64,000 nucleotides of DNA from Mesorhizobium sp. M1E.F.Ca.ET.045.02.1.1 (lineage in GTDB: Bacteria > Pseudomonadota > Alphaproteobacteria > Rhizobiales > Rhizobiaceae), in assembly GCF_003952485.1 (NCBI RefSeq), contig NZ_CP034447.1:4974501-5038500 (forward strand), given 5' to 3'. The position numbers and the translations under genes are program-made. How positions within the stretch are numbered: position 1 is the first letter of the stretch; the number at the start of each line of letters is the position of its first letter. Positions 11,362-13,421 of this stretch are shown in pieces. Below the pieces are notes generated by a model. That model saw nothing but the letters and a program-made list of their open reading frames with translations. It was not told where the DNA came from and did no database searches.

Positions 11362-12306
11362 ATGGCCGCCGGCAAGCCTGTTGTCATGAAGCCTGTTGTG
11401 ATCTTGGGGGTCTTCGTCGCCGACACGGCCTATCGCGCCGACCGCCAGCCGCGCATGGGCGAGACGATCCTGGGCAATTCGTTCAAGCTCGGACCGGGCG
11501 GCAAAGGTTCGAACCAGGCGGTGGCGGCCGGCAAGCTCGGCGCCGACATCACGTTTCTGACGCGGCTCGGCGTCGATGCCTTTGCCGACATGGCCAAGCA
11601 GACCTGGAAAGGCGCCGGCGTGAAAAGCGCGGTGATCGACACGCCCGACAGCTACACGGGGGCGGCCTACATCTTCGTCGAGGAGGGCAGCGGCAACAAC
11701 GCCATCATCGTCAGCCCGGGTGCGGCGATGCTGATCTCGCCCGCCGACATCGAGGCGCATGCCGATCTGATCCGCTCGGCCGGCGTCTTCGTCACCCAAC
11801 TCGAACAGCCGATCGATGCCGCGCTGAAGGCGCTCGAGATCGCGCGCGGAGCAGGGGTGACGACCATCCTCAACCCGGCGCCGGCCGCCACGCTGCCGGA
11901 CAGCATCTACGCGCTCTGCGACTATGTCACGCCCAACGAGTCCGAGGCCGAAGGGTTGACCGGCATCAAGGTTTCGTCGATCGAGGATGCCCGCCGCGCC
12001 GCCGACGCGTTGCTGGCGAAGGGTGTCGGCACCGTCATCGTGACGCTTGGCGAGAAGGGTGCGCTGCTGCACAGCAAGGACTGTTCCGAACATGTAGGCG
12101 CGGTCAATGCCGGCGCGGTGATCGAAACCACGGGGGCGGGCGACGCCTTCAATGGCGGCCTGGCGGCAGCACTTGCCAAGGGTGTCGAGCCGCTGGAGGC
12201 GGTGCACTTTGCCTGCGCCGTCGCCGGCATTTCGGTGACCCGTCCGGGCACGGCTCCGTCGATGCCGACGCTTGAGGAAGTCGAGGCGCTGCTGGCGAAG
12301 GCTTGA
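11362..12306 (+). CDS. rbsK: Ribokinase, PfkB family
   Basis: A 314-residue sugar kinase that phosphorylates ribose or a related pentose with ATP. The GPGGKGSNQAVAAGKLGAD segment near residue 45 is the ribokinase substrate-binding signature, NPAPAA lies mid-protein, and ETTGAGDAFNGGLAAAL near residue 255 supplies the catalytic Asp and the anion hole. The start at 11362 has AAGGAG directly before it; a longer frame overlaps the mutarotase gene. Adjacent FucU/RbsD mutarotase plus importer is the classic ribose-uptake arrangement, although the importer is CUT1 rather than the usual RbsABC type. Confidence 0.9.
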   Translation: MAAGKPVVMKPVVILGVFVADTAYRADRQPRMGETILGNSFKLGPGGKGSNQAVAAGKLGADITFLTRLGVDAFADMAKQTWKGAGVKSAVIDTPDSYTGAAYIFVEEGSGNNAIIVSPGAAMLISPADIEAHADLIRSAGVFVTQLEQPIDAALKALEIARGAGVTTILNPAPAATLPDSIYALCDYVTPNESEAEGLTGIKVSSIEDARRAADALLAKGVGTVIVTLGEKGALLHSKDCSEHVGAVNAGAVIETTGAGDAFNGGLAAALAKGVEPLEAVHFACAVAGISVTRPGTAPSMPTLEEVEALLAKA

Positions 12307-12651: not shown

Positions 12652-13041
12652 ATGCAATTTCCTCAATTTCTAGTGGGCATGTTCGCGACGTCGTTCATTA
12701 CGGCGATCTGGGCTGAACTGGAGACAGGCTCGGCTTGGAGGGCGCTCGGCTGGGCCATTGTTGCGATGATCATTCTTCAGGTCGGATACGTCGGACTGGC
12801 GGTCCGGCTGATCTACAAACTGAAATCGCAGGGCACTGAGGCAGATTTGGTATCGGCAAATTCCACGCCACCAGTCCATCGAGCGCGTCCGCGCAAGTCG
12901 GTTCGAGCGCAGTCGGGGCACGCGTGCGCCCACGACTGGCCGAATTCAGCCACAACCCGTCCTTCGGAACGCAACGAGTGCGCGCGCGTTCACTGTCTTG
13001 ACCAAACACAAGGCAGCGCCGGTTCCGGAACGGTGAGATGA
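12652..13041 (+). CDS. ExoX-like exopolysaccharide-repressor family membrane protein
   Basis: A 129-residue product. Residues 1-60 begin MQFPQFLVGMF, hold two hydrophobic segments (LVGMFATSFITAIWA and ALGWAIVAMIILQVGYVGLAV) and end in a short basic stretch, the layout of rhizobial ExoX/PsiA proteins that inhibit exopolysaccharide synthesis at the membrane. The remaining ~70 residues are hydrophilic, rich in Arg, Ser, Thr and Cys, and have no counterpart I recognise; family members are usually nearer 90 residues. The stop TGA overlaps the ATG of the next small frame (ATGA). The ATG at 12652 is chosen over a TTG at 12637. Family assignment rests on memory of the fold pattern. Confidence 0.55.
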   Translation: MQFPQFLVGMFATSFITAIWAELETGSAWRALGWAIVAMIILQVGYVGLAVRLIYKLKSQGTEADLVSANSTPPVHRARPRKSVRAQSGHACAHDWPNSATTRPSERNECARVHCLDQTQGSAGSGTVR

Positions 13042-13136
13042 AGAAGCCCTATGAAAAGCCTACGCTTGTAAAGCGCGAGAAGCTCACCGAGCGAACCGCC
13101 CAGATTGTCTCCTCCGGTGTCGTGTTGGGCGAGTGA
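13038..13136 (+). CDS. 32-residue peptide with lasso-type leader signature (putative RiPP precursor)
   Basis: A short frame whose ATG overlaps the upstream stop (ATGA). The peptide begins MKKPYEKPTLVKRE and carries Tyr5, Pro8, Leu10 and Thr20, matching the lasso-peptide leader pattern YxxPxL...T; Glu14 stands where a Gly is common. If Thr20 is the penultimate leader residue, the remaining core starts at Gln22 and has no Asp or Glu at core positions 7-9, so it could not form a standard lasso ring. Similar orphan peptides are annotated as putative RiPP precursors in Mesorhizobium. No asparagine-synthetase-like cyclase, leader protease or RRE protein is in the window. A GTTCCGGAAC palindrome (13022-13031) lies just before the start. 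Confidence 0.6.
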   Translation: MKKPYEKPTLVKREKLTERTAQIVSSGVVLGE

Positions 13137-13152: not shown

Positions 13153-13356
13153 CTAGAGAATCTTGCTGGTCAGTTCCAGCATCGTCGCGGCGCCTTGCTC
13201 GCTGCCGGGCATATGCACGACGCGCAGAACGCGAAGGTCCATATTCGATCCGTCGACCGGCATGGATACGCTTTCACCCACCCGCGGCAATTCCTGGAAA
13301 GCGAGCTCGTCCACATCCCTGGCGTCGTCAATCGAAACGCGACATCTCACAGTCAT
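13153..13356 (-). CDS. Small conserved-looking protein of unknown function
   Basis: A 67-residue frame starting MTVRCRVSIDD with GGGAG a few bases before the ATG. The composition, alternating hydrophobic and charged residues (LRVLRVVHMP, ATMLELTSKIL), suggests a small beta-rich domain. It has no signal peptide or membrane span. It ends 16 bases from the stop of the convergent RiPP-like peptide. I do not recognise the family; the good ribosome site and protein-like composition are the only support. Confidence 0.5.
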   Translation of the reverse strand: MTVRCRVSIDDARDVDELAFQELPRVGESVSMPVDGSNMDLRVLRVVHMPGSEQGAATMLELTSKIL

Positions 13357-13421
13357 CTCAATCTCCCGATTTCGACTTCTGGGTGGAACGGAACAATAAG
13401 CGATTAGTTCCTGCCGCGGCT

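Follow-up and report, generated by a model that had tools for sequence, protein, structure and literature searches.

A conserved 32-residue peptide with a lasso-type leader in Mesorhizobium, a probable linear RiPP precursor for an unlinked cyclase-less enzyme module

In Mesorhizobium sp. M1E.F.Ca.ET.045.02.1.1 an ATG frame of 32 codons at 13038-13136 overlaps with its first codon the stop of the preceding ExoX-like frame, 12652-13041 (ATGA), and specifies a peptide that resembles the precursor of a lasso peptide. The question is whether this peptide is a RiPP precursor, which enzymes could then mature it, and whether the overlap has a meaning. A first-pass annotation made from the DNA alone described the overlapping pair and took the peptide either for an orphan precursor or for a leader-like peptide with a different job. 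The window, the whole stretch of 64,000 nucleotides that was analysed, is G000:C1:4974501-5038500 in a genome of 7.35 Mb. The features around the small frame are:

11386..12306, plus strand: ribokinase-like gene rbsK (PfkB family; PF00294, 213.4 bits), the usual upstream neighbour
12652..13041, plus strand: ExoX/SyrA-like small membrane protein, of which about the first 81 codons are common to relatives
12895..13041, plus strand: C-terminal extension of the ExoX-like frame by probable read-through, covering the promoter region of the peptide gene
12966..12990, plus strand: putative EcfG-type promoter of the peptide gene, GGAAC-N16-CGTT, 47 nt before the ATG
13038..13136, plus strand: gene of a RiPP-like precursor peptide of 32 aa (leader 1-21, core QIVSSGVVLGE, stop)
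13038..13100, plus strand: leader, with Y5, P8, L10 and T20 at -17, -14, -12 and -2 and A21 at -1; predicted B2 cut after A21
13101..13133, plus strand: core of 11 residues; Ser25 and Ser26 (core 4 and 5) are the predicted kinase target
13153..13356, minus strand: convergent gene of 67 aa, no family match
13387..13411, minus strand: putative EcfG-type promoter serving the 67-aa gene; 29 of the 32 loci with this gene show the consensus

Translation of 13038-13136 gives MKKPYEKPTLVKREKLTERTAQIVSSGVVLGE. In lasso leaders, as described in the literature, YxxPxL occupies positions -17 through -12, and residue -2 is Thr or, in rare cases, Ile or Val (PMC10368454). Tyr5, Pro8, Leu10 and Thr20 stand in exactly this published spacing (PMC10368454), and because the numbering of that study fixes the YxxPxL and Thr(-2) positions, Ala21 is residue -1 and QIVSSGVVLGE is the core. 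Met1, Lys2, Tyr5, Pro8, Leu16 and Ala21 are invariant in an aligned set of 26 diverse family members. The core has no Asp or Glu at positions 7-9, where a lasso peptide has its ring acceptor; residues 28-30 are Val, Val and Leu. The first-pass annotation had seen both the spacing and the missing acceptor, and its reading of the peptide as a RiPP-like precursor, of lasso type in its leader and lacking a ring acceptor, is supported.

When the genus was searched with the single peptide, 96 of 144 genomes gave a match at E <= 0.001. The proposed check for stop codons or frameshifts in relatives gave an unbroken frame in all 60 ortholog loci compared, a set in which broken copies would be under-represented because 59 of the loci were chosen from the better matches of this search (the remaining one is from G099). 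One ortholog (L124) has a longer and different C-terminus. In 60 rows of 32 codons, with the window copy included and L124 left out, pN/pS was 0.18 overall, 0.22 in the leader and 0.12 in the core. The frame is not there by chance; it is conserved and under purifying selection.

The label ExoX-like for the preceding frame stands as weak similarity but falls short of the curated models for exopolysaccharide repressors of the ExoX/SyrA type, which were not reached (NF052519, 20.6 bits against a cut-off of 140; PF11089 SyrA, 12.7 against 25). A match to exoX was present near the peptide in 10 of the 61 ortholog loci, upstream in nine, the window counted, and downstream in L081; in the stretch searched around the peptide it was absent from the other 51. 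The hydrophilic tail of about 70 residues, which had been suggested to exist for the coupling of both genes, is real but, among these 10 loci, peculiar to the window genome, where the protein has 129 aa as against 74-99 aa in the nine others. In all eight relatives compared the upstream exoX is 76-99 codons long and ends 104-287 nt short of the peptide ATG, so that the overlapping pair is found in one of the nine loci with exoX upstream, namely that of the window genome. Three loci without an upstream exoX (L081, L085 and L102) have DNA in front of the peptide that matches the translated tail. Because of these stops in relatives and the tail-like DNA without exoX, the tail is best read as read-through into the 5' region of the peptide gene, and the overlap looks like an accident of the window genome. 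The commoner arrangement, seen in 37 of 61 loci (window counted), is an msmX-like ABC ATPase gene, an RbsD/FucU-family gene, rbsK and then the peptide; in nine of these 37, again with the window, rbsK and the peptide are separated by the ExoX-like gene. For the remaining ortholog contexts, the neighbours (adhesin, phage-tail-like, gpm-like) were named by eye.

The motif in front of the peptide gene has the form of the EcfG1 motif of Rhizobium etli, GGAAC-N16-CGTT (PMC3892343). Because single matches to this pattern mean little (there are five in the 64-kb window on both strands), the argument rests on conservation. The consensus, with a spacer of 16 or 17, precedes 58 of 61 peptide orthologs, including all 37 in the rbsK context, and is present in other neighbourhoods too; its background is 1.7% of random 250-nt stretches. 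The three departures are L112 (one mismatch), L120 and L126. L112 (G019) and L120 (G118), both of the compared orthologs that come from genomes without the type-B B2 peptidase described below, are among them, and L126 comes from a genome that has it (G113). When the comparison was widened to 177 family genes, the consensus was found in 60 of 68 P0001-like (window-type) genes, 26-58 nt from the start codon in those 60, and in one of 109 others, where it lies 148 nt away. Stress control of the family as a whole was rejected, since one in 109 genes outside the window lineage is about background. For the window peptide itself the conserved motif argues that it is probably stress-induced through EcfG. 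The 67-aa gene has its own conserved EcfG-type promoter, so that two small genes, each with a promoter of the stress type, converge at this spot.

The first-pass annotation regarded the precursor as an orphan without machinery, and this part of it did not survive. The window genome has two B2 genes above the Pfam cut-off, one of type A (L136) and one of type B (L135). The type-B gene belongs to a module at G000:C1 about 1,325,070-1,328,173, 3.66 Mb from the peptide, which consists of a PqqD-type RRE, a lasso-type B2 peptidase and an HprK-like kinase in this order, facing the gene of an NTP_transf_5 nucleotidyltransferase; as described below, the B2 of this module tracks the peptide family. RRE and B2 are thus available in trans (NF033537, 69.8 bits, cut-off 33; PF05402, 43.3 bits, cut-off 23.4), and PF14907 is matched by the module with 89.4 bits (cut-off 31.2). 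By sequence, the nearest solved relatives of the RRE in the PDB are TfuB1 (E 2.4e-5) and TbiB1 (E 0.009), which we take to be lasso B1 proteins; PDB sequence searches with B2 and kinase gave no match under E 0.2. Cys and His of B2 are retained in 15 of 15 aligned rows. HprK models score far under their curated cut-offs against the kinase, which was called by its motif: His, GK(S/T) and Asp-Asp are retained in 13 of 13 aligned type-B rows. Lasso kinases that have been tested carry the same His/Lys/Asp/Asp motif (PMC9266682, PMC10368454); one of them, BsfK, phosphorylates core Ser3, helped by its RRE (PMC10368454), and PsmN adds a hexose onto the phospho-Ser of pseudomycoidin (PMC9266682). We infer that the RRE and B2 of the module act on the peptide.

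No lasso cyclase was found in the module. In the window genome none of the ten proteins adjoining it had a cyclase, transporter or signal-peptidase domain in Pfam, and the leader pattern found no precursor within 20 kb around it. All 15 module loci have RRE, B2, kinase and nucleotidyltransferase, and none shows a match to the lasso cyclase of the window genome; the one cyclase model used, NF033535, scored below its cut-off for 14 of the 16 genomes checked. The two genomes above it (G000 and G137) both have type A, and eight others gave sub-cut-off matches of up to 275 bits. The ABC transporter of cluster A was matched in one of the 15 loci, L400. This locus (in G221) has the module without a recognised precursor and a second, partial RRE match, and may use divergent precursors. 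A search of plasmids with the type-B B2 found no match.

About 27 kb from the type-B module lies a true lasso cluster, the type-A cluster L136 (G000:C1:1347000-1366900), with a precursor, RRE, B2, cyclase (755.8 bits, cut-off 525), HprK-like protein, NTP_transf_5 protein and ABC transporter. The search for RRE, B2 and C genes elsewhere in the genome that had been proposed thus found the full set here, and in the module RRE and B2 but not the cyclase. L136 is surrounded by genes for UDP-glucose dehydrogenase, a glycosyl transferase, a bacterial sugar transferase, Poly_export, an acyltransferase and Wzy_C and by a SyrA-like protein (24.2 bits, cut-off 25); a Wzz-domain protein and a sugar-nucleotidyltransferase-type protein are encoded between L135 and L136. 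With its SyrA-like neighbour and its surroundings of exopolysaccharide-type genes, L136 resembles the capsule-linked clusters of Bacilli. A looser link between peptide and polysaccharide is therefore possible, the true lasso cluster amid such genes being so near the module.

Type-B B2, searched as B2 alone, served as the genome-wide marker of the module in the genus. It was found in 95 of 144 genomes. The profiles used for the peptides, A1 and A2, derive from family members detected in the present analysis; at E <= 0.1 the family profile matched in 105 of the 144 genomes, and in 98 after removal of seven with single borderline matches (E 0.019-0.09), all without type-B B2. Both were present in 95 genomes, B2 only in none, the peptide only in three and neither in 46 (Fisher 1.7e-34). 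Each of the 95 genomes with type-B B2 has 3-29 peptide matches at this threshold; the three genomes with peptide only, G019, G118 and G134, have 4, 1 and 1. On a single-gene gyrB tree that covered 100 genomes of the genus (every one of the 49 without type-B B2 and 51 of the 95 with it), seven independent contrasts for type B gave 6.2 in the same direction, none opposite and 0.8 without difference (median p 0.031, range 0.016-0.063). With scoring by the single peptide the table became 93/2/3/46 and the median p 0.0625; when the contrasts were drawn on the peptide under this scoring, 3.8 ran the same way, none opposite and 2.2 showed no difference (p 0.125). The losses of B2 and peptides run parallel on this tree.

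Raw counts link type A with the peptides as well (92/13/4/35, p 2.6e-18), so that the two types are separable solely by the tree and by genomes with a single type. The types were split among the matches listed, with two PF13471 matches counted as both types, except in G040, where both look like type A. As a control, type-A B2 on the gyrB tree gave, in six contrasts, 1.9 in the same direction, 0.5 opposite and 3.6 without difference. Strong peptide matches were absent from 12 of the 15 type-A-only genomes, and the type-B-only genomes G033, G016, G050, G126 and G122 have 6-16 peptide matches each.

The pairing extends beyond the genus. Of 397 genomes of the order, 17 have type-B B2 (E <= 1e-8) and 20 match the peptide profile (E <= 0.01), with 16 in both groups; peptides were thus found in 16 of the 17 genomes that have type-B B2 as against 4 of the 380 that lack it. 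Each of these four peptide-only genomes gave a single match (E 0.0025-0.0095), G221 has type-B B2 without a recognised peptide, and G420, counted among the 16, has one weak match (E 0.003) about 1.8 kb from B2. Outside Mesorhizobium, peptides are present in 10 of 11 genomes with type-B B2. Twenty stretches were compared: 15 module loci, i.e. all eleven found outside the genus in the order search and four from Mesorhizobium, and five tandem arrays (L402-L406). Module and precursor share a stretch of 10-16 kb in eight of the eleven genomes from outside Mesorhizobium (L391-L395, L397-L399); the match in L390 sits in a longer frame and was left out of the precursor count. Within Mesorhizobium a precursor accompanies the module in L171, L173 and L176 of 10 short loci (L170-L179) and in two (L401, L408) of the four module loci just mentioned, which are not a fair sample because G137 (L401) was chosen for its nearby match. 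No precursor was found in module loci L396, L400, L407 and L409.

The peptides form a scattered family, with five members in the window genome. Its leader, about MKKxYxKPxLxKRxxLSxVTA, is fixed, and its cores are short and variable. Searching the compared loci for the leader pattern gave 161 distinct peptides with 121 distinct cores of 6-23 residues, of which 105 have 7-11 and 56 have 6-9. All 121 cores contain Ser, and 119 have it at core 3-6, as against a mean of 63 and a maximum of 84 after 2000 shuffles, a comparison that is a guide and not a probability because many cores are related and the loci were partly taken by full-length profiles. Asp or Glu at core 7-9 occurs in 12 of the 121. 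The core of the window lineage, with its pN/pS of 0.12, is very conserved, unlike the variable cores elsewhere in the family. Other genera of the order have tandem arrays of 3-5 precursors in L402-L406 (for example MTKRTYETPVLTKREKLDRIAA...), the cores of which all contain Ser and in several cases Cys. The precursor in L401 has Cys in place of the leader Tyr. The family members in L138 and L410 lie near a phage-integrase-family and an IS91-type transposase gene and near an IS66 transposase gene on a plasmid, which hints at mobility.

How could these observations be explained without a role of the type-B module? The peptide could be a lasso precursor processed by L136, since it has the same leader grammar, the genome holds a complete lasso cluster, and type-A B2 goes with the peptides in raw counts. 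The core, however, is without Asp or Glu at 7-9, an acceptor present in just 12 of the 121 family cores, and 56 of these cores have 6-9 residues; most type-A-only genomes lack strong matches whereas the five type-B-only genomes have many, and the cyclase model exceeds its cut-off in two of 16 genomes. A lasso product of cluster A was rejected on the missing acceptor, the single-type genomes and the cyclase, and we consider this origin very improbable. A coupling of the peptide to exopolysaccharide control by the exoX overlap would be in line with the ATGA of the window genome and with another ExoX/SyrA-like gene at cluster A amid exopolysaccharide-type genes. It is scarcely credible in view of the few loci that have exoX near the peptide at all and the earlier end of exoX in every relative compared, on which synteny it was rejected, and of the peptide's own conserved promoter motif.

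More serious, although still unlikely, is the view that the peptide is no RiPP but a small stress protein or regulatory peptide, active unmodified, with a mere resemblance to lasso leaders. The highly conserved core of the window lineage, its own EcfG promoter and the retention of peptides in three genomes without type-B B2 would suit such a role, but within the genus as well as in further families of the order the peptides go with the module B2, often adjoining it, and they keep both the RRE-binding spacing and the core Ser. Common ancestry or linked transfer could also have produced the co-occurrence of peptide and module with no functional tie: the tree shows clustered labels (7 changes each) and offers only 7 independent contrasts, and some paralogs are near transposases. 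Against this, the precursors of the window genome are unlinked to the module and yet both are jointly absent in several separate branches, no contrast runs in the opposite direction, and the pairing recurs in 10 of 11 type-B B2 genomes outside the genus, which makes this explanation quite improbable, if a shade less so than processing by L136.

The peptide is quite probably a substrate of the type-B module, and with nearly the same confidence it can be described as a linear, non-lasso RiPP precursor that is made in trans by this module and, in the case of the window member, under general stress. In the proposed pathway the window member would be produced under general stress and its YxxPxL would be bound by the module RRE. 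The HprK-like kinase would phosphorylate Ser at core 4 or 5, the nucleotidyltransferase may add a nucleotide or a sugar onto this phosphate, and B2 would cut after Ala21 to release a phosphorylated peptide of about 11 residues. Phosphorylation of the core Ser is somewhat less secure, being rather more likely than not. An orphan leader-like peptide thereby becomes part of a testable pathway, in which the enzyme module is unlinked and the cut site, the modified Ser and the regulator are all predicted.

Among known systems, the design recalls that of the prochlorosins, in which one maturation system serves many unlinked precursors with a fixed leader and a variable core. The likeness is one of design; the lanthipeptide chemistry and the unrelated enzymes differ. 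A member of the present family from a plasmid of Mesorhizobium sp. AR02, WP_258589678.1, is annotated at NCBI as 'putative RiPP precursor', an annotation that suspects a RiPP and gives no machinery, class or promoter. Among the literature matches listed (titles and beginnings of abstracts, mostly without the subscription literature) there was no description of the Mesorhizobium peptides or of a B2-type cyclase-less module. The phosphorylated lasso peptides paeninodin, Bsf of Bradymonas and pseudomycoidin have RRE, B2, kinase and YxxPxL in common with it, Bsf and pseudomycoidin also the nucleotidyltransferase, and Thr or Ile/Val stands at -2 in phosphorylated lassos (PMC9266682, PMC10368454); they possess, however, a cyclase and a core Asp/Glu as ring acceptor, of which the present system has neither.

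Closest are the linear polyphosphorylated peptides (LPPs) of Bacillota (PMC13381572; Nat Commun, May 2026), which according to the text available of that study share a discrete RRE, an HprK-like kinase, an NTP transferase and a leader of the YxxPx[V/L] type without a cyclase, are phosphorylated at a core Ser (S3) and are often encoded in capsular polysaccharide loci. The combination of RRE, HprK-like kinase and NTP transferase without a cyclase is found here too, with the kinase called by motif against models under their cut-offs. The differences lie in the LPP features of a SipW-like signal peptidase and an MsbA-like transporter, in place of which the present module has a peptidase of the B2 family, with neither a signal-peptidase domain nor a transporter of this kind in the ten neighbours in the window genome and with an ABC match in one of 15 loci; in the number of precursors, 1-3 per cluster in LPPs as against the 3-29 profile matches per genome, which in the window genome are unlinked to the module; and in distribution, LPPs being called restricted to Bacillota by their authors (PMC13381572), whereas the present system belongs to alphaproteobacteria. 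For paeninodins as for LPPs, the function is given in the LPP study as unknown (PMC13381572). If the present reading is true, linear phospho-RiPPs extend beyond Bacillota with a different peptidase, a multi-precursor design in trans has been built from lasso-type parts, and one such RiPP is stress-controlled, its conserved core suggesting a physiological role. On balance we lean, with some reserve, to an undescribed alphaproteobacterial RiPP class, in which a cyclase-less module of RRE, B2, kinase and nucleotidyltransferase would convert many scattered precursors into short linear phospho- (or phosphoglyco- or nucleotidyl-) peptides, the window member, wired to EcfG, having its part in signalling or the physiology of stress and not being an antibiotic. 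Assigned to neither lasso peptides nor LPPs, it would work like an LPP pathway with B2 and scattered precursors.
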